Source: Sphingobium sp. Leaf26
Lineage (GTDB): Bacteria > Pseudomonadota > Alphaproteobacteria > Sphingomonadales > Sphingomonadaceae
DNA: 64,000 nt
Direction of reading: 5' to 3'
Assembly: GCF_001421665.1 (NCBI RefSeq)
Contig: NZ_LMKV01000023.1
Span: 189,879 to 253,878 of the forward strand
Made by a program: the position numbers and the translations under genes. Each line of letters starts with the position of its first letter. Position 1 is the first letter of the stretch. The notes beneath the pieces are model-generated. The model made no database searches and had not been told where the DNA came from. It saw nothing but the letters and a program-made list of their open reading frames with translations. Shown here piece after piece: positions 1 through 14,911 of the stretch.

Positions 1-982
1 CCACCAATTCCGGGATGAAGCTGTCCAGGTCGCTGTCGCCTTCGATGATGCCATGGATGCGATGGCCATAGGTGATGAGCGCAGCGAGATTGATGGAAAG
101 GCTGCTTTCCGGCCGGGGCGGCACACCGACCAGCCCCAGCAGGCCGTGGCTGCCAAGCGACGCCGGCGCCGCCTCCACCACCGCTTCCCGCCCGCTCGTC
201 TCGAACGCAAACTCGACGCCGTCCGCCACGATCGCGCGGATCGCGTCCGGCAGCGAAGGCTCTCCTGCCGGGTCGATCGCATGGGTCGCGCCCAGCGACA
301 GCGCCAGATCGCGGCGACTGGCCACGGGTTCGACCACGATGATCGTCGCGCACCCCTGGATCACCGCGCCCATCACCGCCGCCAGGCCCACCGGTCCCGC
401 GCCGAAGATGGCGATGCTCGATCCGGCCGGACAGGCGAGTGATCGCATCACCCCGCCCGCCCCGGTCTGGAACCCGCAGGCCAGCGGCCCCAGCAATTCC
501 AGCGGCACATCCGTCGCCTCGATCTTCACGACATTGCGCTCCTGCGCCAGCGCATGCCCGGCAAAGGAGGACTGGCCGAAGAAATGGCCGGACAACGCCG
601 CGTCACCCTGCCGCAGCCCCGAACTGCCGTCCGCTCGCGTGCCCGCATAGTTGAGCATGGGAAAGTCGCGGCAATAGGAGGGGAGATGCTCGTCGCACCG
701 CGCGCAATGGCCGCAACTGGCAAAGCCGATCACGACCCTGTCGCCCGGCACGACCTTGGTCACGCCATCACCCACTGCCTCGACGATGCCCGCCCCTTCA
801 TGCCCCAACACGGCGGGCAGCGGGATCGGGATGAACTGGTCCCGCGCGACCAGATCGGTATGGCACAGCCCGACCCCGACGATCCGTACCAGCACCTCGC
901 CCGGCCGGGGCGGATCGATGACGATCGGCTCGACCGTGAAGGGGTGATGCGGGGCGCGGGCGACGGCGGCGATACTGTCCAT
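1..982 (-). CDS. Zinc-dependent alcohol dehydrogenase, aryl/benzyl-alcohol type (3' end beyond window)
   Basis: Medium-chain NAD(P)-dependent alcohol dehydrogenase; about 327 residues are visible and the C-terminus is cut by the window edge. Catalytic zinc ligands are seen as Cys40 (GLCHTD), His61 (GHEGAG) and Cys169 (ACGFQTGAG). The structural zinc loop has Cys90, 93, 96 and 104. A Rossmann motif GAGPVGLAA follows, and an Asp after the next strand (VVDHEP) suggests NAD preference. The CGFQTGAG stretch resembles aryl- and benzyl-alcohol dehydrogenases. AAGGA overlaps the stop of the upstream SDR gene, 10 bases away, so this is the last visible gene of the P450 operon. It probably oxidises the alcohol made by the P450. 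The substrate is unknown. Confidence 0.9.
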   Translation of the reverse strand, partial: MDSIAAVARAPHHPFTVEPIVIDPPRPGEVLVRIVGVGLCHTDLVARDQFIPIPLPAVLGHEGAGIVEAVGDGVTKVVPGDRVVIGFASCGHCARCDEHLPSYCRDFPMLNYAGTRADGSSGLRQGDAALSGHFFGQSSFAGHALAQERNVVKIEATDVPLELLGPLACGFQTGAGGVMRSLACPAGSSIAIFGAGPVGLAAVMGAVIQGCATIIVVEPVASRRDLALSLGATHAIDPAGEPSLPDAIRAIVADGVEFAFETSGREAVVEAAPASLGSHGLLGLVGVPPRPESSLSINLAALITYGHRIHGIIEGDSDLDSFIPELV

Positions 983-992
983 GATATGTCCT

Positions 993-1784
993 TCAGGCTG
1001 CGGTATAGCCACCATCGGCAACGAACTCCGCGCCGGTGATGAAAGCGGCATCGTCACCGGCCAGGAAGGCGACGAGCGGGGCGATATCCTGCGCCACGCC
1101 CAGCCGCCCCATCGGGATCATCCGCGCCCAGGCGGCGAGCGCGACCTCCGGCGGGATCAGCGCCCCCGTCTCGTCGCGGGGCGGCTCCCAGTCGGCGCCC
1201 AAATTGGTCTGCACTGGCCCCGGCAGTACGCAATTGACGCGGATGCCGGTCTTGGCAAGCTCGACCGCGACCGCACGGCTCAGCGATCGGACCGCGCCTT
1301 TGGTGGCGCTGTAGGCCGCGAACTGCGCGCCCGCGACCATGCCATAGACCGATGCGATATTGATGATCGACGCGCCCTTCGCCCCATCGGCAATGGTGCG
1401 GCGCATCAGCGGCAATGCGGTCTGCATGCCGATATAAACGCTCTCCACGTTGATGCGGTTCTGCCGGCGCAGTAGCTCGACTGGCGCTTCCTCGAACGGC
1501 TGGGCCATCATGATACCGGCATTGTTGACCAATATGTCGAGCCGGCCGAAGCGCGCGTCGATTGCCGCCACGCCATCTGCCCATGCCGCTTCGCTGGTGA
1601 CGTCCTGCATCAGCGACAGGGTCGCCGCGCCGCTGCACAACCCGACGGTTTCCTCCAGCCCCGCCGGATTGATGTCGCCCAGCACGACGCTCGCGCCCTG
1701 CGCCACCAGCGCGATCGCGGTCGCCCGACCGATGCCCGATCCCGCACCCGTGACCCAGGCGACCTTGCCATCCAGCTTGCTCAT
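993..1784 (-). CDS. Short-chain dehydrogenase/reductase
   Basis: Classical SDR of 263 residues. The cofactor motif TGAGSGIG lies at about residues 12-19, NNAG near 90, a catalytic Ser in the NIASVYG segment and the YSATK pair near 160. The C-terminal FVADGGYTAA is typical of the glucose-dehydrogenase-like subfamily. It starts 1 base after the stop of the upstream GFA gene and is followed at 10 bases by the alcohol dehydrogenase, so the genes are co-transcribed and probably translationally coupled. It likely oxidises or reduces a hydroxy or keto intermediate of the pathway; the sequence does not name the substrate. Confidence 0.9.
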   Translation of the reverse strand: MSKLDGKVAWVTGAGSGIGRATAIALVAQGASVVLGDINPAGLEETVGLCSGAATLSLMQDVTSEAAWADGVAAIDARFGRLDILVNNAGIMMAQPFEEAPVELLRRQNRINVESVYIGMQTALPLMRRTIADGAKGASIINIASVYGMVAGAQFAAYSATKGAVRSLSRAVAVELAKTGIRVNCVLPGPVQTNLGADWEPPRDETGALIPPEVALAAWARMIPMGRLGVAQDIAPLVAFLAGDDAAFITGAEFVADGGYTAA

Positions 1785-1785
1785 C

Positions 1786-2205
1786 TCATTCTCCGATATT
1801 GGACCGCGCGAAACGCTGGTCGGTGATGGGCGGCATCCAGTTGAGCGCGCTGTCGCAATAGGCCTCCAGCATCGGCGGCCACTGGTCGGGCATGTCGAGC
1901 GTACCGGCCTTGACGATCGTCAACCCCGGCAGCGCCGCCGCCATCGACCGGATCGGCGACCCGCATGTGGCGCAGAAGTGGCGGTAGACCGCCGCGCCGC
2001 TTTCGCCGCGATCCGTGTAGATGCGGGTTTCGCCCCTTTCGCTATAGGCCTCGTCCGCGACCGCGCAGACCAGCGAGAAGGGCGCGCCGCCCTGCTTGCG
2101 GCAATGGGTGCAATGGCATAGCGCCACCAGCAGCGGATCGCCGGAAAAGCTGTAGCGCACCTGCCCGCACAGGCACCCGCCTTCATGGACGCTCAAGTCG
2201 CTCAT
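1786..2205 (-). CDS. GFA/CENP-V family zinc-binding protein
   Basis: Protein of 139 residues with the GFA (glutathione-dependent formaldehyde-activating-like) fold. Zinc-binding cysteines are visible as Cys11 and Cys13 (GGCLCGQVRY), Cys30, Cys32 and Cys35 (CHCTHCRKQGG), and Cys78 and Cys81 (HFCATCGSP). The family binds two zinc ions, and some members act with glutathione on small aldehydes, but most are uncharacterised. The start overlaps the end of the aldehyde dehydrogenase by 4 bases (ATGA). In this operon it may help handle an aldehyde by-product; that role is a guess. Confidence 0.88.
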   Translation of the reverse strand: MSDLSVHEGGCLCGQVRYSFSGDPLLVALCHCTHCRKQGGAPFSLVCAVADEAYSERGETRIYTDRGESGAAVYRHFCATCGSPIRSMAAALPGLTIVKAGTLDMPDQWPPMLEAYCDSALNWMPPITDQRFARSNIGE

Positions 2206-3668
2206 AATGCCACCACCACCGTCTTGGGTTCCAGATAGGCGTCCAGCACCTCGCTGCCATTTTCGCGGCCGATGCCGGACATCTTCATGCCGCCGAAGGG
2301 AAAGGCCGGATCGGCCAGCATCACGCAGTTGACGAAGGCCGTGCCGGCCTCCAGTCGCGCCGCCGTGCGATGCGCGGTTGCCAGGTCGCGGGTGAAGACA
2401 TGGGCGGCTAGGCCGTAGGGGCTGTCATTAGAGAGGTCGATCGCCTCGTCCAGATCGTCGAAGGCGGCGGTGGCCAGCACCGGTCCGAATATCTCCTCCC
2501 GCGCCGCCTCCGCATCGCGCGGCACATCACGCAGCAGGGTGGGCGGGAAATAATAGCCTTCGGCGGGCAGCGCCCCATGCGCCGCCACCGCCTCTATCCC
2601 CGCCGCCCGCGCGCGTTCGACATAGCCTGTCACCCGCTCATGCTGGCGCGCGCTGATCAGCGGACCGAGCGCGGTGCTACGATCCGCGCTGCTGCCCAGC
2701 GTCAATCCGGCGGCAAAGGTGGCTATGCCCTCCACCACCTCGTCATAGACAGACCGATGCACATAGAGGCGCGTGCCAGCATAACAGACCTGCCCGCTGT
2801 TGAAGAAACAGCCCATCGCCGCTTGCGGAATGGCGTTCGACAGGTCGGCGTCGGCGCAAATGATGGAGGGCGACTTGCCGCCGAGTTCCAGCGTGACCCG
2901 TTTCAATTCAGGCACGGACGCCCGTAATATCCCCTGCCCCGTCGCGGTCGATCCGGTGAAGGCGATCTTGGCGACGAGCGGATGCTCCACCAGCGCCGCG
3001 CCGGTCGCGCCGTCGCCGGTGACGACACTCAGCACGCCGTCGGGCAATCCCGCCTGCCGCGCCAGTTCCACCAGCCGCAGCGCGGACAGGGGCGTTTCCG
3101 GTGCAGGTTTCAGAACGACGGTGCATCCCGCCGCCAGCGCGGGCGCGATTTTCCACATCGCCAGCACCAGCGGGAAATTCCACGGCGTGATCGCCGCGAC
3201 CACACCGATCGGCTCGCGCCGCGTGTAGACATGCCACTGGCCCGGCATGGCGGACAATGTGCCCGCCCGGCCCGCCAGTTTGGTCGGCCAGCCGGCATAG
3301 GTGCGCAGCCATCCGATCGCGGCGGGAATATCGACTGTCTCCGTCACCGCGATCGGCTTGCCAGCGTCCAGCGCCTCCAGCGCTGCGAGCCGGGGCAAGT
3401 CTGCCTCGATCGCATCGGCAAAGCGGTGCAGCAGCCGCTCGCGCGCCAGCGGCGTCAGGTCGCGCCAGGCCGGATCATGGAACGCCCGGTGCGCCGCCTG
3501 TACGATTGCATCGACTTGGCTCCCATCGGCCACCGGTATCTGCGCAAAGGTCTGCGCCGTGCAGGGATCGATGTCGGCGATCGTCGCCCCGGTGGCCAGC
3601 CGATCGCCGCCTGCGCGTAACTTCATATCGGGCAGAACCAGTCCCTCGAAACCCTGAATGGCACTCAC
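2202..3668 (-). CDS. NAD(P)-dependent aldehyde dehydrogenase
   Basis: Full-length ALDH superfamily protein of 488 residues. The oxyanion Asn164 is in TPWNFP, the nucleotide-loop FTGS is near 237-240, general base Glu261 is in LELGGKSP and nucleophile Cys295 is in NSGQVCYAGTR. The family oxidises aldehydes to acids with NAD(P)+. It overlaps the AraC gene upstream and the GFA gene downstream by 4 bases each. It probably carries out the aldehyde-to-acid step after the P450 and alcohol dehydrogenase. A role as 2-oxoglutarate-semialdehyde dehydrogenase for the distant xylose operon cannot be excluded, but the operon context argues against it. Confidence 0.92.
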   Translation of the reverse strand: MSAIQGFEGLVLPDMKLRAGGDRLATGATIADIDPCTAQTFAQIPVADGSQVDAIVQAAHRAFHDPAWRDLTPLARERLLHRFADAIEADLPRLAALEALDAGKPIAVTETVDIPAAIGWLRTYAGWPTKLAGRAGTLSAMPGQWHVYTRREPIGVVAAITPWNFPLVLAMWKIAPALAAGCTVVLKPAPETPLSALRLVELARQAGLPDGVLSVVTGDGATGAALVEHPLVAKIAFTGSTATGQGILRASVPELKRVTLELGGKSPSIICADADLSNAIPQAAMGCFFNSGQVCYAGTRLYVHRSVYDEVVEGIATFAAGLTLGSSADRSTALGPLISARQHERVTGYVERARAAGIEAVAAHGALPAEGYYFPPTLLRDVPRDAEAAREEIFGPVLATAAFDDLDEAIDLSNDSPYGLAAHVFTRDLATAHRTAARLEAGTAFVNCVMLADPAFPFGGMKMSGIGRENGSEVLDAYLEPKTVVVAL

Positions 3669-4549
3669 TGAAGCGTCTCCTGACGGCGTCTGCGAAAATC
3701 GCTCGGCGTTTCGCCGGCAAACTGGCGGAAGGCGCGGGTGAAATGGCTCTGGCTGGTGAAGCCGAGCGCGTCGGCGATCGTCGCCATCGACGTGTCGGAC
3801 TGTTCCAGCATCTGCTGCGCCCGGTCGAGCCGCGCGCGCATGACATATTGATGCGGCGACACGCCCGTCGCCTTCTTGAACACGCGGCAGAAATGGGTCG
3901 GGGTGATGCCGGCCTGCGCCGCCAGTTCCTCCAGATTGTGACTGGCTTCGGGCCGGTCGAGAATGGCGTTCATGATCGCGTGGATGCGATAGGAGGAGAA
4001 AGCGGTGGTCGGGATTTCCGCGCTACTGGCGTTCACCGGCCCGCGCATCATATGGGCTTTGAGCGCATCGACGAGTGCGCCGACATAGACGTCCCGATCC
4101 TTCGTCTGCGGCGCATAGAGTTCGCCCAGCACCTGCCGCGTCAGCGCCACGCCCAGCGGATCGGAGAAGGCGAAGCGCATCCGCCTGAACTGGTCGAGCG
4201 CGGGCGCGCGTTGCAGGTCGGTGGACGCGACGCTCAGCGTCACGACGTCCAGTTCGCCATCGACCAGCCAGCCGGTCGGCTGCCCCGACGGAACGATGGT
4301 GGCGCATCCGGGCAGCGAACTCGTCTCGCTCCACCCGTCCCGTTCCCAGGTGCGGACATTGGGCTTGCCTGCGATATGCACGACGAACATCGGGTCGGGT
4401 AAAGCCGGCAAGGTGTAGCTGCCGACGAACTGACGCCAGCGGCACAGGCGCCAGCGTCCATGGTCGGCGCCCAACTGGATGTCGGGCGCACGGCCAAGCG
4501 CGTCGGAAATAATCTGTTCGTCGGTCGATCCGCGCGCCGGGTCCATCAT
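3665..4549 (-). CDS. AraC-family transcriptional regulator (paralogue of the gene at 9870)
   Basis: Regulator of 294 residues with a C-terminal AraC DNA-binding domain (about 190-290). Two helix-turn-helix units are visible: LEELAAQAGITPTHFCRVFK and MATIADALGFTSQSHFTRAF, followed by the typical GETPSDFR end. The N-terminal about 180 residues are a sensor region without a recognisable motif. It sits inside the operon between the P450 and the aldehyde dehydrogenase. It is closely similar over its whole length to a second regulator at 9870-10757 on the other side of the cluster. Likely an activator responding to the pathway substrate or an intermediate. Confidence 0.9.
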   Translation of the reverse strand: MMDPARGSTDEQIISDALGRAPDIQLGADHGRWRLCRWRQFVGSYTLPALPDPMFVVHIAGKPNVRTWERDGWSETSSLPGCATIVPSGQPTGWLVDGELDVVTLSVASTDLQRAPALDQFRRMRFAFSDPLGVALTRQVLGELYAPQTKDRDVYVGALVDALKAHMMRGPVNASSAEIPTTAFSSYRIHAIMNAILDRPEASHNLEELAAQAGITPTHFCRVFKKATGVSPHQYVMRARLDRAQQMLEQSDTSMATIADALGFTSQSHFTRAFRQFAGETPSDFRRRRQETLQ

Positions 4550-4556
4550 CCTCTCC

Positions 4557-5789
4557 TCATGCAGGCACCATCTGCACGTCCAGATTCTTCAACCCGTTGA
4601 TGAAGTTGGACCTGAATCGGCGTGGCGCCGCCATCACATTGAACCGGGCGACACGCTCCGCCAAGAGACTGAACGCCACCCTCAACTGCATTTCGGCGAG
4701 GCGCGATCCCACGCACACATGCTGGCCGGTGCCAAAGCCCAGATGCTGGATATTGCCCCGGTTTATGTCGAACCGGTCGGGGTCGGGAAAGACGCTCTCG
4801 TCGCGATTGGCCGCGATGTACCACAGCACTATCTTGTCGCCTTTGGCGATCGCCTGCCCGCCGATCTGGGTGTCCGCCGTCGCCGTCCGCCGCATGTGCA
4901 TGACGGGGCTGGCATAGCGCACCATTTCGCGCACGCCGTTCTTCAGCAAAGTCGGATCGGCACGGACCAAGTCCCACTGGTCGGGATTGGCGGCGAAGGC
5001 GGCGACACTGTGGCTCAGCGAATTGCGCGTCGTTTCGTTCGCACCGACCAGCGCCAGGATGAGGTTGCCGACAAACTCCTGGAACGTCACCGGCTGGCCG
5101 TTGACTTCCATGGTCGCCAGCAAGGTCGCCAGATCCTGCCCCGGCGTTGCTCGGCGCTCCTCGAACAGCCCCTGCGCAAAGGCCATGAACTCGCCCAGTA
5201 TCGCCGCCATCGCTTGCGGCGACTGGCGGAAGTCGGGGTCATCCTCCCCGACGAAGGCGTTGGTCCAGTCGTAGAGTTTGACCCACATGTCGGTCGGCAG
5301 GTCGAGCAATTCGCACAGGGTGAGCAACGGCAGCGGCGCGGACAGCAACGGCACCAGATCGACCGTTTCGCCAAGCGGAATCTTCTTGATCAGGCTGAGG
5401 CAGCGATCCCGGATGCGTTCTTCGATCCCGGCCAGCCGCCCCGGCGACAGAGCGGGCATGATGAACTTGCGATATTGGGTATGGAGTGGCGGATCGACCG
5501 AGATGAAGGGGATGCCGATCGCCGCCTCCCCCGCCCCGGTCAGGCCGACCTCATTTTCGTTGAAGATGCGATGGCCGCCATTGTCATAAGCGGACGAGAA
5601 GAGGCCGGGATTGCGCGACACTTCCACGATGTCGGCATAGCGGGTGAGCGCCCAGAAGCCCGCCCCGTCGCTTTCCGGGTTCCAGTAGACGGGCTGTTCC
5701 GCCCGGAGCCGCGCGAACAGGTCGTGCGGCGCCCGGTCGCAATAGAGATCGGGGTCTTTGAGATCCGGGGCGGCTGGCGTGGCGGTCAT
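4557..5789 (-). CDS. Cytochrome P450 monooxygenase
   Basis: Soluble bacterial (class I type) P450 of 410 residues. Visible hallmarks are the I-helix acid-alcohol pair in VGANETT (about 248-254), the K-helix ExxR (Glu288 to Arg291) and the haem loop FGTGQHVCVG with the cysteine ligand Cys359. There is no signal peptide or membrane anchor. The family inserts one oxygen atom into C-H bonds, using electrons from a ferredoxin and its reductase; neither partner gene is visible in this window. It is the second gene of the operon, 16 bases after the TonB receptor stop. With the alcohol and aldehyde dehydrogenases and the facing CoA ligase it suggests oxidation of a methyl or methylene group to a carboxylate. 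The substrate is unknown. Confidence 0.93.
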   Translation of the reverse strand: MTATPAAPDLKDPDLYCDRAPHDLFARLRAEQPVYWNPESDGAGFWALTRYADIVEVSRNPGLFSSAYDNGGHRIFNENEVGLTGAGEAAIGIPFISVDPPLHTQYRKFIMPALSPGRLAGIEERIRDRCLSLIKKIPLGETVDLVPLLSAPLPLLTLCELLDLPTDMWVKLYDWTNAFVGEDDPDFRQSPQAMAAILGEFMAFAQGLFEERRATPGQDLATLLATMEVNGQPVTFQEFVGNLILALVGANETTRNSLSHSVAAFAANPDQWDLVRADPTLLKNGVREMVRYASPVMHMRRTATADTQIGGQAIAKGDKIVLWYIAANRDESVFPDPDRFDINRGNIQHLGFGTGQHVCVGSRLAEMQLRVAFSLLAERVARFNVMAAPRRFRSNFINGLKNLDVQMVPA

Positions 5790-5805
5790 GGGCGCTCTCC
5801 CGCCG

Positions 5806-8040
5806 TCAGAAGCTGAAACGGCCGGTCACGCCGAAGGTGCGCGGCATGGCCGGGACGAGGAAATTATAAGGGAAGCCCGCCCCGCGCAGGTCCAGGCCAT
5901 AGCTGTAGGTCTTGCGGCTGAAGGCGTTGTTGATCCAGCCGCGTAATTGAAACGGCCCATGCGCCCAGGCCAGCGTGGCATTGACCTTGGCATAGCCCTT
6001 TTGCTGCAATTCCGCGTTGTTCTGCGCCGTGCCGACTGCATCGGTGCCGTTGAAGGGCGAGAAATATTGGCGGCTGAAATAATTGACCGTGGGCGAGAAG
6101 GTCAGGCTGTCGCTGCCCGTGTCGAAGATGGTCCAGTCGAACCCGGCCGTCCCTGTCCAGCGCGGGGCGAAGGGCAGATCGTTGCCAGACAGGTCCGTGC
6201 CCTGCAAGGTCAGTTCCTTGTAGGTGGCGTGGAGATAGCCGCCCGACAGGTTGATGACCAGGCCATCGAAGGGCCGCAGGCTGCCCTCCACCTCACCGCC
6301 ATAGACTTGCGATTTGGGCGCGTTGACCAGGAAGGACACCGGGCCGGGCCGCGTATCCTGTACCTGCTGGTTGCTATAGTCATAATAGAAGCCGGCGGCG
6401 GACAGGGTCAGTCTGTTGTCGAGGAAGCGGCCCTTGACGCCCACTTCATAGGCGTTGACCCGTTCGGGGTCGATATAGGTGATGCCGACCGATGACGTGT
6501 AGCCGCCGCCATTGAACGCGCCGGACCGATAGCCCCGGCTGTAGCTGGCATAGACCAGCGTTCCGCCGTCGAACGTGTAGCTCAAGGCCGCGCGGCCGGT
6601 CAGCGCCTTGTTGCTGCCGTCGATCGCGAAACGGGCGGCGGGATCATAGGCGCAGGTGCCCGGCACTCCGGCGCAGGGCACGGTGCTGGCAAGCGGCGTG
6701 CCCGCGCTGCCGAACGGGCCGGCGAACAGATAGGCATAGCCGTCGCCATAGCGCGCCTTGTCCCACGTGTAGCGCGCGCCCAGGGTCAGGACCAGTTTGT
6801 CGGTCAGGCTATAATCGCCCTGAAGGAAAGCGGCATAGGAGCGGCGGGTCTGGCGATAGTGCTGGAAGAAGCCGCCATCGACGCCCGGCCCCAGGGCGCT
6901 GCCGATGTTGAAGCGATTGTCGGTGATCGTGCGGTCCCAGCCATAGAAGCCGCCGCCGACCAGCTTCAGCCGATCGCCTTCATAATTGAGGCGCGCCTCC
7001 TCGCTGAACTGGCGGAAACTGGAGCGCCAGTTGATATTGAGCACGTCGAGCGGCGAACCGTCCGCCGCCTGTTGCAGGTTCTGCTTGCCGCCATCGTAGG
7101 AGGTGATGGACGTGAGCGTGACCGTCGGGCTGAGTTCCAGCGCGACATTGGCCGCCACGCCCCAGGCGTCGGTGCGGTTTTCGCCTACGTCATTTTCGTT
7201 GATGTCAAAAAAGCCCTGCCCCGGCGTGTTGGGACCGGTCAGCCCGTGAATGGCCGCCTGCGCGCCGCGATCGCGCCCGGCATAGGCGCGGATCTTGATA
7301 TCCAGCGGGCCATTGCCCGGCTTCATGCGCAGATAGACGCGGCCCTGCGCCGTATCGACGCTGTTGGAATCCCGGCCGCCCGGCGCGACATTGTGCAGCA
7401 TGCCGTCGCCCTTTTCATAATTGCCGGCGATGCGGATGCCCAGTTCATCCTCGACCATCGTGGTTTCGATCGCGGCCTGCGCCTTGAACGTGTTGAAATT
7501 GCCGTAGCCGACCTCGGCATAGCCGTTGGTGCCGGACAGCCTGGGCGCGCGCGTGATGAAGTTGATCGCGCCGCCGGTCGTGTTGCGACCGAACAAGGTG
7601 CCCTGAGGTCCACGCAGCACTTCCACCCGATCCAGGTCGAACAGACCCATGCCGTGGCTGGTCCGTGCGGCGATATAGACATCGTCGATGTATACGCCGA
7701 CGGGCGAGGCCTGGTTGCTGTTATATTCATTGGCGACGCTGATGCCGCGCAGCGAGAAATTGGGCTGGGTGCTGCCATAGGGGCTGCTGACCTGAAGATT
7801 GGGCACCGCCGTCGCCAGCGCGGCGGAATTGGAAATGCCCTTGTTCTGGAGCGTTTCGCCGCCCAGCGCGGAAATGGCCAATGGCACGGACAGCATGGAT
7901 TGCGACCGGCGCTGCGCGGTGACGATGATGTCTCCATTATCCGCTGCCGGTTGGGGCGCGCTCGCTTCCTGCGCCAGCGCGACCTGCGACACGCCGCTGC
8001 ACAGCAGAATCGCCAACGCCTTGCCCGTGATGACCTTCAT
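5806..8040 (-). CDS. TonB-dependent outer-membrane receptor (P450 cluster)
   Basis: TonB-dependent receptor of 744 residues. It has an N-terminal signal peptide (about 1-23, ending ALAQ), a TonB-box-like segment IIVTAQRRSQ near residue 38, a plug domain with VEVLRGPQGTLFGRN, and a beta-barrel ending in an aromatic residue (GRFSF). It imports a substrate across the outer membrane using the proton motive force through TonB-ExbBD. As first gene of the operon it probably takes up the compound attacked by the P450. It is shorter than, and of a different subgroup from, the xylan-locus receptor at 16901. An untranslated gap of about 240 bases separates it from the divergent acyl-CoA synthetase. Confidence 0.95.
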   Translation of the reverse strand: MKVITGKALAILLCSGVSQVALAQEASAPQPAADNGDIIVTAQRRSQSMLSVPLAISALGGETLQNKGISNSAALATAVPNLQVSSPYGSTQPNFSLRGISVANEYNSNQASPVGVYIDDVYIAARTSHGMGLFDLDRVEVLRGPQGTLFGRNTTGGAINFITRAPRLSGTNGYAEVGYGNFNTFKAQAAIETTMVEDELGIRIAGNYEKGDGMLHNVAPGGRDSNSVDTAQGRVYLRMKPGNGPLDIKIRAYAGRDRGAQAAIHGLTGPNTPGQGFFDINENDVGENRTDAWGVAANVALELSPTVTLTSITSYDGGKQNLQQAADGSPLDVLNINWRSSFRQFSEEARLNYEGDRLKLVGGGFYGWDRTITDNRFNIGSALGPGVDGGFFQHYRQTRRSYAAFLQGDYSLTDKLVLTLGARYTWDKARYGDGYAYLFAGPFGSAGTPLASTVPCAGVPGTCAYDPAARFAIDGSNKALTGRAALSYTFDGGTLVYASYSRGYRSGAFNGGGYTSSVGITYIDPERVNAYEVGVKGRFLDNRLTLSAAGFYYDYSNQQVQDTRPGPVSFLVNAPKSQVYGGEVEGSLRPFDGLVINLSGGYLHATYKELTLQGTDLSGNDLPFAPRWTGTAGFDWTIFDTGSDSLTFSPTVNYFSRQYFSPFNGTDAVGTAQNNAELQQKGYAKVNATLAWAHGPFQLRGWINNAFSRKTYSYGLDLRGAGFPYNFLVPAMPRTFGVTGRFSF

Positions 8041-8137
8041 TATACCCTCTCCTCCATCTTCCCCCTGTTGGCGGGGGATGCGGTTATGATGGAGCAGACC
8101 TAGCCCAGCCGAACCGGGAAGGCTTTACCCAGAGTTG

Positions 8138-8153
8138 ATGCCAGATTTGGCAT
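8138..8153. promoter_or_regulatory. Palindrome in the divergent promoter region of the P450 cluster
   Basis: ATGCCA-N4-TGGCAT is a perfect 6-bp inverted repeat inside the 244-base gap between the divergent TonB receptor (start 8040) and acyl-CoA synthetase (start 8285). It lies about 100 bases before the receptor start. It could be bound by one of the two AraC paralogues or by another regulator, though AraC sites are more often direct repeats. No other strong motif is recognised in the gap. Confidence 0.35.
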
Positions 8154-8284
8154 TTCTTGCGCTTGCCTTGAACTGGCGCGCAAACCGGGCCTCTGTAGCC
8201 ATCAAGCGCAAGACGCGAGCGATAGCGGCCCCGGCCGACCATGCTCCGCGCATCATGCTGCATGATTTTTGGAGAGGCTCACCC

Positions 8285-9835
8285 ATGCACCCCAGGCCAT
8301 TTGCGATCAGCGACCCGGATCGCCCGGCGATCATCCTGCCGGCGACCGACCAGACCATCAGCTACGCCCAGTTGGAGGCCGCCGCCAACCGTGGCGCCCA
8401 CCTGCTGCGCGCGCTCGGCTGTGTGCGGGGTGACGGGATCGCGCTCCTGATGGACAATGAAGCCGCGATCTTCGACATTGGCTGGGCAGCCCAGCGCATC
8501 GGCCTCTATCTCACCAGCATCTCGACCAAGCTGACCTTCACCGACATCGCCTATATCCTGCGGGATTCGGGCGCGCGCATCCTGGTCGCGTCCGACCGGC
8601 TCGCCCCGCTGGCACAGGCTGCGCTGGCGAAGGCGGACGGCGTACAGGGCTATCTGGTCGACAGCGCCATCGGCCCGCTCGAAAACTGGTCCGCCAGCGC
8701 CGCCCGCTATCCCGACACGCCCGTCCCGGACGAAAGCGCCGGAACCGACATGCTCTATTCGTCCGGCACCACCGGCCGGCCCAAGGGGGTGAAGCCCCCG
8801 CTGCCCGGTGGCTCACTGGACGCGCAGACCGCGCTGGAGGCCATGGGCACCAGCCTTTATGGCATGGGGGAAGACAGCATCTATCTCTCCACTTCCCCCC
8901 TCTATCATGCAGCGCCCCTGCGCTGGGCGATGACCATCCATCGGCTCGGCGGCACGGTGGTCGTGATGGATCGCTTCGACGCGGAGGAATCGCTGGCGCT
9001 GATCGAACGCTACCGCGTCACCCATGCGACCTGGGTGCCGACCCATTTCGTGCGGCTGCTGAAACTGCCGGCCGATGTCCGTACCCGCTACGATCATGGA
9101 TCGCTCGAAGCCGTCATCCACGCCGCCGCACCCTGCCCGGTGCCGGTCAAGCAGGCGATGATCGACTGGTGGGGACCGATCGTCCACGAATATTATTCCG
9201 GCACGGAATGTTGCGGCATCACGGCTCTGTCATCCTCCGAATGGCTGGCAAGGCCGGGATCGGTCGGCAAGGCAGTGCTCGGCAGGGTCCGTATCGTCGG
9301 AGAGGATGGGCAGGAAGTCGCAGCCAGCGAAACGGGCGACGTCTTTTTCTCGGATGGGCCGGCCTTCACCTATCATAATGACCCGGACAAGACAGCCGCC
9401 GCCCATGATGACCGGGGCTGGGCGACACTGGGCGATGTCGGCCATCTGGACGCGGACGGCTATCTCTTCCTGACCGACCGGCGCAGCTTCATGATCATCT
9501 CCGGCGGGGTGAACATCTATCCGCAGGAAATCGAAAACTGCCTTGTTACCCATCCTGATGTCGTCGACGCCGCCGTGATCGGCGTGCCGGACGAGGACAT
9601 GGGCGAACGGGTGCTGGCCATCATCCAGCCGGTCGAGGGCGTGACGGGCGACACCGCCCTGAATGAGAACCTCACATGCTTCGTCCGCGCCGCGCTCGGC
9701 AGCGTCAAGACGCCCCGCAGCTTCGCTTGGCGTGCGCAATTGCCGCGCGAACCCACCGGCAAATTGATGAAACGCAAACTGATGGATGAATTTCGCGGAC
9801 CAGACGCTAAGCTGGCGGAACAAGAAGGAGAGTGA
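8285..9835 (+). CDS. AMP-forming acyl-CoA synthetase/ligase
   Basis: ANL-superfamily adenylating enzyme of 516 residues. The phosphate-binding loop is YSSGTTGRPKGV (about 155-166). The core motif near 300 reads HEYYSGTECCG, and the hinge and C-terminal motifs are LTDRRSFMIISGGVNIYP and the Lys of PTGKLMKR. It activates a carboxylic acid to its CoA thioester via an acyl-AMP. The ATG at 8285 was chosen because GGAGAGG precedes it by about 9 bases; an ATG at 8255 and a longer frame from 8135 are also open but lack such a site. It is divergent from the P450 operon and probably activates the acid made by it. Confidence 0.92.
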   Translation: MHPRPFAISDPDRPAIILPATDQTISYAQLEAAANRGAHLLRALGCVRGDGIALLMDNEAAIFDIGWAAQRIGLYLTSISTKLTFTDIAYILRDSGARILVASDRLAPLAQAALAKADGVQGYLVDSAIGPLENWSASAARYPDTPVPDESAGTDMLYSSGTTGRPKGVKPPLPGGSLDAQTALEAMGTSLYGMGEDSIYLSTSPLYHAAPLRWAMTIHRLGGTVVVMDRFDAEESLALIERYRVTHATWVPTHFVRLLKLPADVRTRYDHGSLEAVIHAAAPCPVPVKQAMIDWWGPIVHEYYSGTECCGITALSSSEWLARPGSVGKAVLGRVRIVGEDGQEVAASETGDVFFSDGPAFTYHNDPDKTAAAHDDRGWATLGDVGHLDADGYLFLTDRRSFMIISGGVNIYPQEIENCLVTHPDVVDAAVIGVPDEDMGERVLAIIQPVEGVTGDTALNENLTCFVRAALGSVKTPRSFAWRAQLPREPTGKLMKRKLMDEFRGPDAKLAEQEGE

Positions 9836-9869
9836 AGATGATCGGTCCATTCGCCGGAGCCATCGCGTC

Positions 9870-10757
9870 ATGAAAGCGGCCTCGCATAGGGACGGCAGAT
9901 GGCATGGCGAGGCGATCATCGCCGATACGCTGAAGCGCGACCCGGAGGTGAAGCTGGAATCCTCCGACGGTCGCTGGCGCTTCAGTCGCTGGCGCCAGTT
10001 CGTCGGCAGCTATGCCCTGCCCCCTTTGCCCGATCCGCTGTTCGTGGTGCAACTGGCCGGCAAGACCAATGTGCGCACCTGGGATCGCGACGGGTGGAGC
10101 GAGACGACATCCTATCCCGGTGCCGCGACGATCGTGCCGGCGACGATGAGCACGAAATGGCTGGTCGACGGCGAACTGGACGTCGTGACGCTCAGCATCG
10201 ACGCAGACGATCTGAGATCGGCATCGGTACTGGACCAGTTTTCGCGCATGCGCTTCGCCTTCAACGATCCGCTGGGCGCCGCGCTTGCCCGCCAGATATT
10301 GGCCGAACTCTATACGCCATCGGACGGCCCGCGCGACCTCTATGTCTCGGCCCTGATCGACGCGCTCAAGGCGCATATGCTGCGCGGCCCGGTGAAGGCG
10401 GCGGCGCAGGACTTTCCGACCTCCGCCTTTTCCGCCTATCGCATCCATCACATCATGAATGCGATCCGGGAGCGGCCGGAGGCGGAGCATGGGCTGGACG
10501 AGATGGCGGCGCAGATCGGCATCACTCCGTCGCACCTCTGCCGCGTGTTCAAGAAAGCGACGGGCGTCAGTCCGCATCAATATGTGCTGAAGACCCGGCT
10601 GGAACGGGCGCAGGAAATGCTGGGCCAATCCGACGCCTCGATGAATTATATCGCCGAATTTCTGGGCTTTGCCAGCCAGAGCAGTTTCAATCGGGCGTTC
10701 CGCAACATGACCGGGGAAACCCCGTCCAGCTACCGCAGACGTAGGTTGGACGCATAA
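9870..10757 (+). CDS. AraC-family transcriptional regulator (paralogue of the gene at 3665)
   Basis: Regulator of 295 residues with a C-terminal AraC domain (LDEMAAQIGITPSHLCRVFK; MNYIAEFLGFASQSSFNRAF; GETPSSYRRR). It matches the regulator at 3665-4549 in nearly every segment, including RWRQFVGSY, WLVDGELDVVTLS and KKATGVSPHQYV, so the two are clear paralogues. The ATG at 9870 gives a protein the same size as its paralogue; an upstream frame from 9786 overlaps the CoA ligase. It is the second gene of the plus-strand half-operon. Confidence 0.88.
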   Translation: MKAASHRDGRWHGEAIIADTLKRDPEVKLESSDGRWRFSRWRQFVGSYALPPLPDPLFVVQLAGKTNVRTWDRDGWSETTSYPGAATIVPATMSTKWLVDGELDVVTLSIDADDLRSASVLDQFSRMRFAFNDPLGAALARQILAELYTPSDGPRDLYVSALIDALKAHMLRGPVKAAAQDFPTSAFSAYRIHHIMNAIRERPEAEHGLDEMAAQIGITPSHLCRVFKKATGVSPHQYVLKTRLERAQEMLGQSDASMNYIAEFLGFASQSSFNRAFRNMTGETPSSYRRRRLDA

Positions 10758-10837
10758 GCGAAAAGATTTGCACGCCGACGGAGAAATGCGGACATTGCCG
10801 CGTCCGTGCGATGCGGGATGGCAGGAGGAGGCTGGCG

Positions 10838-11197
10838 ATGCGTGTGATGGTGCTGGTGAAAGCGACCGAGGATAGCGAGAAAGGCTATCATCCTACGCCT
10901 GAGACGGAGGCGATGATGAATGCGATGGGGCGTTTCAACGACGCGCTGCGAGACGCCGGCATCCTCATCATGGCCGATGGGTTGATGCCATCTTCCGCGG
11001 GCAAGCGGGTCGCCTTCGACGGGCCGGACCGCAGGGTCATCGACGGCCCTTTCCCGGAGCCACGCCAACTGGTCGCCGGCTTCTGGCTGTGGGAGGTCAA
11101 GGACATGGAGGAGGCCGTCGCATGGGTGAAGCGCTGCCCCAACCCCATGCCCGGACCGAGCGAGATCGAAATCCGCCCTTTCCATGACCTGAACTGA
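10838..11197 (+). CDS. YCII-related (DGPF domain) protein
   Basis: Small dimeric-barrel protein of 119 residues. The family motif is visible in the IDGPFPEPRQLVAGFWLW segment; the N-terminal strand MRVMVLVKATEDSE and the C-terminal PGPSEIEIRP are also typical. The ATG at 10838 follows GGAGGAGG by about 7 bases. YCII-like proteins include a few enzymes of aromatic and chloroaromatic breakdown, but DGPF members are mostly of unknown function. It lies downstream of the second AraC regulator and convergent with putA, 11 bases from its stop. Confidence 0.8.
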   Translation: MRVMVLVKATEDSEKGYHPTPETEAMMNAMGRFNDALRDAGILIMADGLMPSSAGKRVAFDGPDRRVIDGPFPEPRQLVAGFWLWEVKDMEEAVAWVKRCPNPMPGPSEIEIRPFHDLN

Positions 11198-11208
11198 CGC
11201 GGCACACC

Positions 11209-14200
11209 TCAGCCGATCATCATCAGGCTGGCATTGCCGCCGGCCGCTGTCGTGTTCACCGATATGGCCTGTTCTTCCAGCAGCCAGTCGAGGCAATAGC
11301 CATGGCCATGATCGTCGGCATGCACCGACACGATCGGACCGGGCATATCCGCGACGCACTGGGCGGTCGCCGCGATCTTGGCGGCGTCGCCCTCGACCAG
11401 CGCGGCGGCGTAATGGCCGCTGGCATCGGTGCTGAAACAGGCGGCGACATCGGCCGGCAGGCCGGGCGGGACCGTCATCCCCTGCACCACGCCATGATTG
11501 CCGGTGGCGAGTATGGCCGCCATCTGGCGGAACAGGCCCTGACGGGTCGCCGGGCGCAACAGGATGCGACCGCGCGGATGCAGGGCGTAAAGGTTGCGTT
11601 CCCCCACCGGGCCGGGCAGCGCCAGTTCGACGCCGAGCGCCGAGGCATCGCCGGTGCGACGGGCCTGCGCGGCGGCCTCCCCTTCCCCCTGCTGGTCGAG
11701 CCAGTCGGCGAAGGCGTGGAGCGGCGAGCGTAGATGGCTGACACGCGCTGCGAAGACTGGCGGCGTCGTGACCAGTCGTCCAAGATAGAGCGGCCCGCCT
11801 GCCTTGGGGCCAGTGCCGGACAGACCGCAGCCGCCGAAGGGCTGAACACCCACGATCGCACCGATGACATTGCGATTTACATAGATATTGCCGGCTTTCA
11901 CGCGGGCCGTCACGCGGGCGACGGTTTCATCCAGCCGGGTGTGCAGGCCGAAGGTCAGGCCATAGCCGGTCGCATTGATCTGATCGACCAGCGCGTCCAG
12001 CCGGTCCCGCCTGAAGCGCAGGACATGGAGGACTGGACCGAAGACTTCTCGGCCAAGGTCGGCGATGGAGTCGATCTCGATGATCGTCGGCGGGACGAAG
12101 GTGCCATGCGCAGCCTCGACCGGCAGCACGCTCTGCTCCACCCTGCGGCCCAGCGCCGCCATGGCGTCGATATGTGTGTTGATGCCGTCGCGCGCTTCGG
12201 CGGAGATGACGGGGCCGATATCGACATTCAGCGCGTCGGTGCGACCGATCCGCAATTCGGCCAGCGCACCCTTGAGCATTGTCAGCGTGCGGTCAGCGAC
12301 CTCCGCCTGAAGGCAGAGGATGCGCAGCGCCGAACAGCGCTGACCGGCGCTGTCGAAGGCGGACGCGATGACGTCGGCGACGACTTGTTCAGCAAGCGCG
12401 CTGCTGTCCACGATCATCGCGTTCTGGCCGCCGGTTTCGGCGATCAGCGGAACGGGACGTCCGGTCGGCGACAGGCGCATGCCCAGTTGCCGCTGGATCA
12501 GGCGGGCGACTTCGGTCGATCCGGTGAACATGACGGCGGCGGTTTCGGGCGCGGCAACCAAAGCAGCGCCGATCCGGCCGTCACCGGGCAACAGTTGCAG
12601 CGCATCCGCTGGCACACCCGCTTCATGGAGCAGGCGAACCGCTTCGGCGGCAATCAGCGGCGTTTCCTCGGCCGGCTTGGCCAGCACCGGATTGCCCGCG
12701 ACCAGCGCCGCGGCCACTTGACCGGTGAAGATGGCGAGCGGGAAGTTCCAGGGGCTGATACAGGTGACGGGGCCAAGCGCCTGCTGCGCCGGGCCGAAGG
12801 TCGTGCGGGCCTGCGCAGCATAATAGCGCAGGAAGTCGATCGCCTCCCGCACTTCGGCGATGGCGTTTGGCAAGGACTTGCCAGCTTCACGGACGATGAG
12901 GCCGAGCAGGATCGGCATGCGCGCCTGCATCGCGTCGGCGGCATTATCCAGCGCTACAGCGCGGTCGGCGACCGGGCTGTTCGGCCAGCGCGACGCGGCG
13001 GCGCGAATGGCGGCGGCGCGGGCTTCCTCCGGCGATGCTTCGGTGACACGGCCCACCACATCGCGGTGATCGGCCGGATTGAAGACGGTGCGCGATGGCC
13101 CAGCCGCCGCTTCGGGCGCCGCAGCCCAGTTGATCGTCGCACTGCGCCGCAGCGCATCGCCCAATGCGGCGAGCGTCGTTTCGTTGCTGAGGTCCAGCCC
13201 TTCCGAATTACGCCGTTCGGGATAGAGATCGGCAGGCAGCGCGATCTGGTCGTGGCGGTGGCCGGGATGCGCCATGGCGTTCACCACATCGACCGGATCG
13301 GCGATCATTTCCTCGATCGAGACATCGGGGTCGGCGATGCGGTTGACGAAGCTGCTGTTGGCGCCATTTTCGAGCAGGCGACGGACCAGATAGGCCAGCA
13401 ATGTCTCATGCGTGCCGACGGGGGCATAGATGCGGCAGGGGCGGTTCAGCTTGTCCGCGCCAACGACCTGTTCGTAAAGTGGTTCGCCCATGCCGTGGAG
13501 GCACTGAAACTCATATCGGCCGATCTGAAAGTCCGGGCCGGCAAGCTGGTAGATGGTGGCCAGCGTCTGTGCGTTGTGAGTCGCGAATTGCGGGAAGACG
13601 GCGTCCGGCGCGGCGAGCAGTTTCTGCGCGCAGGCGATATAGGCGACATCGGTGTGCACTTTGCGGGTATAGACCGGGAAGTCGGCCAGGCCGTCCACCT
13701 GCGCCCGCTTGATCTCTGCGTCCCAATAGGCGCCCTTGACGAGGCGCACCATGATGCTGCGGTCGGCGCGGCGGGCCAGGTCGACGATCCAGTCGATTAC
13801 GAAGGGGCAACGCTTGCCATAGCCCTGCACCACGAAGCCAAGGCCGTTCCAGCCGGCAAGGTCGGGATCGGTCGCCAGACTTTCCAGCAGGTCGAGCGAG
13901 AGTTCGAGCCTGTCGGCCTCCTCCGCGTCGATGTTGAGGCCGATGTCATAGCCCTTCGACAACAGCGCCAGCTTTTTCACGGCAGGCAGCAGTTCGGCCA
14001 TGACCCGGTCGACCTGCGCCCGCACATAGCGGGGATGGAGCGCGGACAGCTTGATCGAGATGCCGGGGCCGGCATAGATGCCGCGCCCCGCCGACGCCTT
14101 GCCGATGGCATGGATCGCCTGTTCATAATCGGCATAATAGCGTTTCGCGTCGGCGGCGGTGGTGGCCGCTTCGCCCAGCATGTCGTAGCTGTAGGCGAAG

Positions 14201-14829
14201 CCCTTCGCCTCCAGTTCCCTTGCGCGCTTGAGCGCTTCCTTGATCGTCTCGCCGGTGACGAACTGTTCGCCCATCATCCGCATGGCGAGGTCGACGCCGC
14301 GGCGGATGACCGGTTCGCCGGCGCGGGCGACAAGCCGGGTCAGCGCCGCGCCAAGGCCGCGATCGTCCACGCTGCCGACCAGCTTGCCGGTGACGACCAG
14401 ACCCCAGGTGGCGGCGTTGACGAACAGCGACTTGTCACCGCCCAGATGCGAGCCCCAGTCACCGTCGGCGATCTTGTCACGGATCAGCGCGTCGCGGGTG
14501 GCGGTGTCGGGTATACGCAGCAGCGCTTCGGCCAGGCACATCAGCGCCACGCCCTCCTGACTGGAGAGCGCATATTCCTGCACCAGCCCTTCGACGCCGG
14601 TGCCCTTGTGATTGGCGCGCAGCGCGGTGACGAGGGTGCGGGCGGTGTCGGCAACCGCTGCTTTCATCTCGGCCGGCAGGGTCGAGGCGGCGATCAGCGG
14701 CGCGAGCGTTTCGGCCTCGTCGCGGCGGTAGGCGGCGGTGATCGCTGCACGCAGCGGGGTGGGCTGGCGGAGGACGGGGGCGAAGGCGGCGAAGGGGGGC
14801 TGTTCGGTCATGAAGGGAGAATAATCCAT
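11209..14829 (-). CDS. putA: Bifunctional proline dehydrogenase / L-glutamate-gamma-semialdehyde dehydrogenase PutA
   Basis: Protein of about 1206 residues that oxidises proline to glutamate in two steps, feeding electrons to the quinone pool and NAD+. The FAD-dependent proline dehydrogenase barrel (about 160-500) shows the YEFQCLHGMGEPLYE segment. The semialdehyde dehydrogenase domain (about 560-1000) has SPWNFP, the base Glu798 (IAETGGQN) and nucleophile Cys832 (SAGQRCSALR). A further about 200-residue C-terminal region matches the long 'type B' PutA class. There is no N-terminal ribbon-helix-helix DNA-binding domain, so it should not repress itself; the divergent Lrp-family gene is the likely regulator. 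Start chosen at ATG 14829; ATG 14811 is an alternative. Confidence 0.95.
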   Translation of the reverse strand: MDYSPFMTEQPPFAAFAPVLRQPTPLRAAITAAYRRDEAETLAPLIAASTLPAEMKAAVADTARTLVTALRANHKGTGVEGLVQEYALSSQEGVALMCLAEALLRIPDTATRDALIRDKIADGDWGSHLGGDKSLFVNAATWGLVVTGKLVGSVDDRGLGAALTRLVARAGEPVIRRGVDLAMRMMGEQFVTGETIKEALKRARELEAKGFAYSYDMLGEAATTAADAKRYYADYEQAIHAIGKASAGRGIYAGPGISIKLSALHPRYVRAQVDRVMAELLPAVKKLALLSKGYDIGLNIDAEEADRLELSLDLLESLATDPDLAGWNGLGFVVQGYGKRCPFVIDWIVDLARRADRSIMVRLVKGAYWDAEIKRAQVDGLADFPVYTRKVHTDVAYIACAQKLLAAPDAVFPQFATHNAQTLATIYQLAGPDFQIGRYEFQCLHGMGEPLYEQVVGADKLNRPCRIYAPVGTHETLLAYLVRRLLENGANSSFVNRIADPDVSIEEMIADPVDVVNAMAHPGHRHDQIALPADLYPERRNSEGLDLSNETTLAALGDALRRSATINWAAAPEAAAGPSRTVFNPADHRDVVGRVTEASPEEARAAAIRAAASRWPNSPVADRAVALDNAADAMQARMPILLGLIVREAGKSLPNAIAEVREAIDFLRYYAAQARTTFGPAQQALGPVTCISPWNFPLAIFTGQVAAALVAGNPVLAKPAEETPLIAAEAVRLLHEAGVPADALQLLPGDGRIGAALVAAPETAAVMFTGSTEVARLIQRQLGMRLSPTGRPVPLIAETGGQNAMIVDSSALAEQVVADVIASAFDSAGQRCSALRILCLQAEVADRTLTMLKGALAELRIGRTDALNVDIGPVISAEARDGINTHIDAMAALGRRVEQSVLPVEAAHGTFVPPTIIEIDSIADLGREVFGPVLHVLRFRRDRLDALVDQINATGYGLTFGLHTRLDETVARVTARVKAGNIYVNRNVIGAIVGVQPFGGCGLSGTGPKAGGPLYLGRLVTTPPVFAARVSHLRSPLHAFADWLDQQGEGEAAAQARRTGDASALGVELALPGPVGERNLYALHPRGRILLRPATRQGLFRQMAAILATGNHGVVQGMTVPPGLPADVAACFSTDASGHYAAALVEGDAAKIAATAQCVADMPGPIVSVHADDHGHGYCLDWLLEEQAISVNTTAAGGNASLMMIG

Positions 14830-14911
14830 ATCAGATTTTCGTTCCGCCTTATGAATGGCCCCTATCCGGTCGGAGTGACTTATTAAGTGGCTCCTGCTAG
14901 GCATATCAGAT
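14827..14911. promoter_or_regulatory. putA/lrp divergent control region with a 10-bp direct repeat
   Basis: CATATCAGAT occurs at 14827-14836 and again at 14902-14911. The first copy covers the putA start codon and the second overlaps the start codon of the Lrp-family gene. Lrp-type regulators usually bind several spaced sites in such divergent regions, so these may be contact sites. The repeats could also be chance. Confidence 0.4.

Follow-up and report, generated by a model that had tools for sequence, protein, structure and literature searches.

A P450 gene cluster of Sphingobium appears to burn its compound by a route shared with animals

The subject of this article is a cluster of genes built around a cytochrome P450 in Sphingobium sp. 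Leaf26. It lies at the left edge of a 64,000-nucleotide stretch of DNA, which we call the window (contig NZ_LMKV01000023.1, or C23, positions 189879–253878, in a 4.82 Mb genome of 33 contigs). The balance tips, if only slightly, toward a single inducible unit for catabolism, some 20 kb long (C23:180347–200635), in which the P450 would initiate the breakdown of a branched, oily compound, probably a terpenoid and possibly of plant origin, by way of a 4-hydroxyacyl-CoA. Judged from its sequence, this sphingomonad cluster appears to break the compound down along a route known from animals too. What is new is a P450-initiated cluster with an LvaAC/ACAD11-type module and an AraC-linked promoter element common to both of its halves. 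A first-pass annotation of the window knew of no described cluster with this gene order, and none was found among the titles and abstract openings that searches of an open-licence library brought up.

We picture the unit working as follows. A TonB-dependent receptor would carry a branched, lipophilic compound through the outer membrane, and the P450 would hydroxylate it. An alcohol dehydrogenase (ADH) and an aldehyde dehydrogenase (ALDH) would, from their families, oxidise the alcohol to an acid, from which a ligase would form the CoA ester. A block comprising a short-chain dehydrogenase (SDR), an acyl-CoA dehydrogenase (ACAD), a kinase, two enoyl-CoA hydratases, a thiolase and a FabK/nitronate-monooxygenase-like flavoprotein would run beta-oxidation. 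Within it, the split LvaA/LvaC (ACAD11-type) pair would phosphorylate the 4-hydroxyacyl-CoA and eliminate phosphate to give a 2-enoyl-CoA. A TetR-type regulator flanks this block, while an AraC-family protein of the type we call AraC1 would act at the element between receptor and ligase. Its paralog AraC2 would be a later duplicate on the same element, as a tree and loci holding only AraC2 suggest. A single route of hydroxylation, two oxidations (of alcohol and of aldehyde) and activation with CoA had been proposed, and the predicted functions agree.

The kinase/dehydrogenase pair and the extent of the unit

A 4-hydroxyacyl-CoA intermediate is to be expected because of hallmark residues in the block's ACAD and the relatedness of the kinase to ACAD11. 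In an excerpt of PMC12440821, ACAD10/11 and LvaC are set apart by an upstream Arg, an HCMR motif and a catalytic Asp. The block ACAD has all three, in VRLSPARLSHCMR and IYDGPTEVH. Both patterns are present in 41 of 41 relatives of at least 60% identity and in the one relative at 45–60%; none of the 32 ACADs under 45% has both (29 have neither, two the first only and one the second only). Against the dehydrogenase domain of ACAD11, the block ACAD scores 173 bits, second to the putative ACAD 4hr3 (185). The kinase is of the APH family (PF01636, 183 bits), carries HGDFRCDN and DWE, and matches the kinase domain of ACAD11 at 261 bits over residues 27–354. LvaA/LvaC and mammalian ACAD10/11 are described as removing the 4-hydroxyl from acyl-CoAs (excerpts of PMC12440821 and PMC11342911), and Burkholderia orthologs as able to replace ACAD10 domains (PMC11342911, excerpt).

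Every gene named in the first-pass annotation was recovered from open reading frames (ORFs) and Pfam/NCBIfam searches, in the order and on the strands it gave. The features are listed in window coordinates, except the last, which lies in L006, the stretch left of the window that was used to complete the ADH (L006:5348–12803 corresponds to C23:180347–187802).

1..982, minus strand: zinc ADH, cut at the window edge, with its 3' end at L006:14755 (C23:189754)
993..1784, minus strand: SDR (Pfam)
1786..2205, minus strand: GFA-domain protein (PF04828, 107.6 bits), accessory, paired with the SDR
2202..3668, minus strand: ALDH (PF00171, 551 bits)
3665..4549, minus strand: AraC1, AraC-family regulator (Pfam, pairwise identity, tree)
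4557..5789, minus strand: cytochrome P450 of a clade near CYP125/CYP124/CYP153 (sequence and structure matches)
5806..8040, minus strand: TonB-dependent outer-membrane receptor (PF00593 and PF07715)
8095..8170, minus strand: conserved promoter element, putative shared operator (receptor promoter alignment, profile search)
8255..9835, plus strand: acyl-CoA ligase, ANL superfamily, FadD4/FadD13-like (FadD4 602 bits, under its cut-off of 850; FadD13 216 bits)
9870..10757, plus strand: AraC2, paralog of AraC1 (start 9870 chosen; longest ORF from 9786)
10811..11197, plus strand: YCII-domain protein (PF03795), adjacent, not conserved with the cluster
L006:5348–12803, strand opposite to the P450 operon: TetR gene, then the block of SDR, ACAD (L006:6828–8015), APH-type kinase (L006:7952–9079), enoyl-CoA hydratase, thiolase, FabK/nitronate-monooxygenase-like protein and second hydratase

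The ADH start at 982 was picked since it follows the SDR stop, the longest reading being a GTG at 1057. The ligase ORF opens at 8135, with 8255 or 8285 the likely start. In the Protein Data Bank (PDB), the ADH matches 5tnx, a zinc ADH with no substrate named, at 375 bits and the benzyl alcohol dehydrogenase 1f8f at 306 bits. The closest NCBIfam relative of the ALDH is StyD, at 555 bits and under the cut-off of 850. The range first annotated is part of the unit, which continues to the left of the window, where the TetR gene and beta-oxidation block end about 2 kb from the window's edge and converge on the P450 operon from the opposite strand.

What joins the two halves

Genome contigs were scanned with the P450, using six patterns and keeping the best 80 of 99 matches, which gave 78 loci. 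Synteny was scored by mechanical ORFs and best BLAST hits; greedy ORF picking missed some genes, and contig ends and the 10-kb flank conceal others in these counts. Receptor, P450 and AraC1 occur together in 52 of the 78 loci, all recovered with the P450 alone, so chance does not account for the grouping. Three or more of the seven block genes are present in 20 loci and a ligase relative (at least 45% identical) in 26. A relative of the GFA protein (at least 40%) or of the SDR (at least 60%) is found in 14, and 13 of these have both. Near-complete sets, with seven of seven block genes, occur in Acinetobacter baylyi (L067) and Azospirillum (L074); others are on A. soli plasmid pGFJ1 (as annotated) and in Novosphingobium resinovorum (L109 and L116). 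The A. baylyi locus combines the block with ligase, outer-membrane protein, P450, AraC, ALDH, ADH, TetR, a 2Fe-2S ferredoxin and an oxidoreductase, which we take for the ferredoxin's reductase. GFA, SDR and ADH share one same-strand run with the block in Azospirillum, and block genes adjoin the P450 genes in Pseudomonas chlororaphis. In Acinetobacter and P. chlororaphis (L067, L114 and L115), an outer-membrane protein (PF13557 in L067, a 'transporter' in L115) replaces the TonB receptor beside the P450; for P. chlororaphis, the replacement was judged from a similar protein start.

Co-occurrence was scored in 298 genomes sampled from the larger family, taking from each genome its 6 to 8 top candidates. 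Ten have a P450 relative of at least 63% identity, the next matches being at 40–41%. An LvaC-like ACAD (E <= 1e-150) is present in all ten, against 66 of the 288 others (Fisher p 7e-7, uncorrected for kinship), and AraC1 (E <= 1e-60) in nine of the ten, against 2 of 288 (Fisher p 1e-14, likewise uncorrected).

The third line of evidence is the promoter element. Aligning receptor promoters revealed one block kept in 13 loci, ungapped over 76 bp, with the consensus GCGCAAGAAATGtCAAA..cGc..CAag.c.gg.tAAAGCC; the window copy (8095–8170) lies between receptor and ligase. A profile trained on these 13 promoters was searched over 102 sequences (1.96 Mb). At E<0.01 it found 57 sites, which fall in 49 sequences; 44 of the sites are in sequences that played no part in training, and the reversed control gave none. 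All 57 adjoin cluster genes: 43 at the receptor (12 common to the ligase, 7 to ALDH), three at the P450, one at the ligase (L063), one at AraC1 (L041) and nine at the ligase/beta-oxidation unit. Seven of these nine, unlabelled automatically, fall within about 200 bp before the unit's canonical ACAD (that of L054 is without HCMR). Ten loci have an element at the ligase/beta-oxidation unit (L048, L049, L051, L053, L054, L058, L060, L061, L063 and L072). They come from sphingomonads and one Brevundimonas and have a second element at the receptor or P450, the receptor copy being weak in L049 and L051 (E 0.02). The window site is still found, at E 1.4e-14, after omitting the window and its three nearest Sphingobium rows from training, and a strict pattern (up to three mismatches) has one match in the 4.82 Mb genome and none in the control. 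An inverted repeat, ATGCCAAATCTGGCAT, lies inside the window's element and is lost in more distant relatives. The element is a candidate, and probably serves as the shared operator of the receptor/P450 and ligase units. As an aside, L049 is titled Arthrobacter sp. TPD3018, while its gene order and closest AraC match Sphingomonas aquatilis (L051); the record is probably a mislabelled Sphingomonas.

Several observations weigh against the single unit we favour. One contrast in its favour, the element being present in 47 of the 60 loci with this AraC (35 of 48 outside training) and in 0 of the 18 loci lacking the AraC, is confounded by kinship, as loci without the AraC are more distant; both Fisher tests are confounded in the same manner. 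Thirteen AraC-bearing loci have no element at E<0.01. Four begin within 2.5 kb of the P450 (L039, L066, L071 and L076), yet L067 and L074 are whole. The block of the window genome has no copy of its own, as nhmmer gave no hit in L006, and what ties it to the cluster in that genome is its position and the evidence from relatives. In the PDB the kinase matches 3dxp, a 'putative acyl-CoA dehydrogenase', best, at 421 bits and above ACAD11. In the ten P450 genomes the ACAD is within 12 kb of the P450 in four and 28 kb away in a fifth; two more have it on the P450's contig but at a long distance, and in the remaining three the best match falls on a different contig. Lastly, the LvaC-like ACAD of 66 of 288 genomes without the P450 marks the pair as a general module, one recruited into the P450 cluster.

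We fetched 20 stretches around such ACADs, 19 from genomes without a close P450, and none had an element hit. L145 has most of the block, in order. L134 has the kinase/ACAD pair with a hydratase, receptor, ADH (76%), SDR (65%) and GFA protein (59%), which may be the same route joined at the alcohol stage. The 17 other stretches without a close P450 contain the ACAD or the pair, accompanied by at most a handful of block-gene relatives, most of them weaker (for example L136). L152, from a P450 genome, has TetR, ACAD and hydratase. Blocks without a P450, such as that of L145, and the lack of linkage in some P450 genomes are what one would expect if the P450 unit and the block were separate neighbouring pathways, the former only detoxifying or modifying a compound. 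We consider this unlikely given the ten loci with an element at the ligase/beta-oxidation unit plus another at receptor or P450, the ten-out-of-ten co-occurrence, and the block genes adjoining the P450 in Acinetobacter, Pseudomonas and Azospirillum. Synteny, co-occurrence and a common promoter element join receptor/P450, ligase and block, and so the outcome that would have counted against the first-pass annotation, two halves from unrelated pathways, did not arise.

Who reads the element? AraC1 and AraC2 are paralogs over their full length, as first described, with 68.1% identity over 279 residues (67% in the sensor half, 71% in the DNA-binding part). Nothing else in the genome is close, the third match having 30% identity over residues 156–288. 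Both have a C-terminal double HTH (HTH_18, 94.9 and 90.2 bits), which places them in the AraC/XylS family. Named AraC families match almost only the DNA-binding part; the FeaR match, at 55 bits (cut-off 199), extends into the sensor half. A midpoint-rooted tree of 66 rows, with several long branches, places the AraC2-type proteins in one clade (seven rows, 100/100) nested among AraC1 rows, beside the Sphingobium-type AraC1, with modest support (94/73). AraC2 thus looks like a later duplicate from within the AraC1 proteins, which lends no support to one regulator for each half.

The original suggestion was that each half-cluster may be controlled by its own AraC, responding to different ligands such as substrate and acid. 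Two full-length paralogs that differ by 32% across both domains would suit such a scheme, as would weak element matches before AraC2 in L092 (E 0.018) and L038 (E 0.082), through which AraC2 may itself be a target of regulation, perhaps by the first regulator. We nevertheless find it distinctly improbable. There is a single element between the halves, with the one strict genome match. Both copies occur in only 4 of the 78 loci (L037, L038, L068 and L092), some loci being cut by contig ends. Loci that show only AraC2 in the DNA analysed (L040 and L109 of the 78, and the plasmid stretch L116) keep the same element: a profile built from seven AraC1-only loci finds it in L116 (1.9e-8), L109 (2.4e-8) and L040 (3.3e-7). 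Because a model from AraC1-only loci finds it there, both copies most likely use one element, and each may be able to control the unit in full. The two Sphingobium copies may still respond to different ligands.

Some neighbours fall outside the unit. The YCII-domain protein, initially counted as a cluster member, has no relative in the 78 loci (tblastn, E 1e-3). Abutting the cluster on the opposite strand is a trifunctional PutA (window 11209–14904; NCBIfam PRK11809, above cut-off), with a relative (51%) only in L085 of the 78 loci. Left of the block, at L006:106–5299 (C23:175105–180298), are an ACAD, an NMT1-type binding protein, a FAD-NAD(P)-binding protein and an NtaA/DmoA-type FMN monooxygenase, a gene set that looks like organosulfur scavenging. 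These candidates (uLLM, uFADNAD, uSBP and the first ACAD) were rejected as members, not being conserved with the cluster; the single LLM relative in the loci is a 34% match in L112.

The P450 and its likely substrate

The P450 has a haem motif FGTGQHVCVG and an I-helix GANETT. Its closest solved sequence is a reconstructed ancestor, CYP125MRCA (357 bits; 42% by Foldseek), followed by CYP153, CYP125 and CYP124 structures at 32–37%; P450terp and CYP108D1 score only 199–200 bits. Membership of a P450 family requires more than 40% identity. The protein therefore sits near CYP125/CYP124/CYP153, while assignment to CYP125 (32–34% to the natural structures listed, with 42% reached only against the reconstructed ancestor) or to CYP153 (32–37% to the structures listed) was rejected on identity. 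The stretch GGHRIFNENE recurs letter for letter in 20 of 22 aligned relatives, in part through selection, since HRIFNENE was among the six search patterns. The structure model has a mean pLDDT of 86.5, falling below 50 at residues 77–94, which overlap the end of this stretch. CYP125, CYP153 and CYP124 are terminal hydroxylases, and because they are its nearest solved relatives, this P450 would hydroxylate a terminal methyl, although none of their substrates carries over to it directly. Two metagenome-assembled genomes titled Klebsiella pneumoniae (L097 and L098; the titles are doubtful) have a 53% P450 relative amid different neighbours, without an AraC relative or the element.

The kinship with CYP125 raises the prospect of steroid side-chain catabolism, the P450 being a proteobacterial CYP125 acting on sterols. 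CYP125MRCA, the best solved relative at 42%, has one sitosterol-bound entry; the thiolase scores 363 bits against a steroid 3-ketoacyl-CoA thiolase model (far under its cut-off of 515), and the ligase 236 bits against CasG (far under 750). At 32–34% to natural CYP125 structures, however, and with no steroid-ring gene among the neighbours profiled or annotated, we regard a sterol route as very improbable.

The gene set suggests a compound with an oxidisable methyl, the breakdown of which leaves a 4-hydroxyacyl-CoA. The best fit is a branched isoprenoid in which shortening leaves a gamma-hydroxyl. A bolder reading, to which we give a low probability, takes the cluster as a pathway for tertiary terpene alcohols such as linalool, nerolidol or terpineol. 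The P450 would oxidise a terminal methyl, and one round of beta-oxidation would leave a tertiary gamma-hydroxyacyl-CoA. Ordinary beta-oxidation would be unable to use this product, and the ACAD11-type kinase/lyase would remove its gamma-hydroxyl. On paper linalool would fit, as its 8-oxidation and loss of propionyl-CoA would yield 4-hydroxy-4-methyl-5-hexenoyl-CoA. Novosphingobium aromaticivorans carries CYP111A2, and no locus bearing that species' title is among the 78, a weak negative from a pattern-limited scan (best 80 of 99 matches). An excerpt of PMC8197338, which also counts P450 families, names CYP111A2 a linalool 8-hydroxylase. In A. baylyi ADP1, ACIAD1575, which we infer to be the counterpart of the L067 P450, is listed as 'linalool 8-monooxygenase linC' (PMC6971185, excerpt); this points in the direction of linalool too, as an annotation and not as functional evidence. 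A passage of PMC7492740 has CYP111 unidentified in that paper's bacterial isolates and predicted in some metagenomes; we do not use it as support. Searches of the open-licence literature led to no substrate; papers on estrogen and bile salts in Caenibius were among what they brought up. Were the terpene-alcohol route true, 4-phosphoacyl-CoA chemistry would have gained a new use, and there would be a reason for the pair to accompany the P450 all the way from sphingomonads to a plasmid of Acinetobacter.

A P450 cluster of 'unknown substrate' becomes a testable pathway, for which a class of intermediate (4-hydroxyacyl-CoA), a minimal gene set and a candidate operator can be named. Hosts are tractable, as the A. 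baylyi type strain holds a relative of the cluster. GGHRIFNENE is a candidate sequence hallmark for annotating this P450 clade. And a recently explained mammalian lipid route, that of ACAD10/11, is tied to environmental P450 catabolism.

Comparison with known systems

The cluster resembles several known systems in part. With AraC/XylS catabolic activators it shares HTH_18, a regulator within the operon and a conserved element at a divergent promoter; it differs in that named families match almost only the DNA-binding part and in the duplicated copy of Sphingobium. The terp (CYP108) and linalool CYP111 clusters are P450-initiated terpene clusters, and have in common with ours a P450, alcohol and aldehyde oxidation and CoA entry; the low scores of P450terp and CYP108D1 set ours apart. 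CYP125, CYP153 and CYP124 resemble the P450 in fold and as its nearest solved sequences, but identity to natural members is 32–37% and the cluster P450 has its own GGHRIFNENE stretch. In chemistry, the likeness is to the lva operon of Pseudomonas putida and to ACAD10/ACAD11: a kinase and an atypical ACAD with Arg, HCMR and Asp, and an expected conversion of 4-hydroxyacyl-CoA to 2-enoyl-CoA. For lva, the comparison covers the kinase and the ACAD. Unlike in those systems, the pair of Sphingobium belongs to a beta-oxidation block of seven genes that neighbours a TonB receptor, P450, ADH, ALDH and ligase, and the cluster's substrate must be oxidised first.

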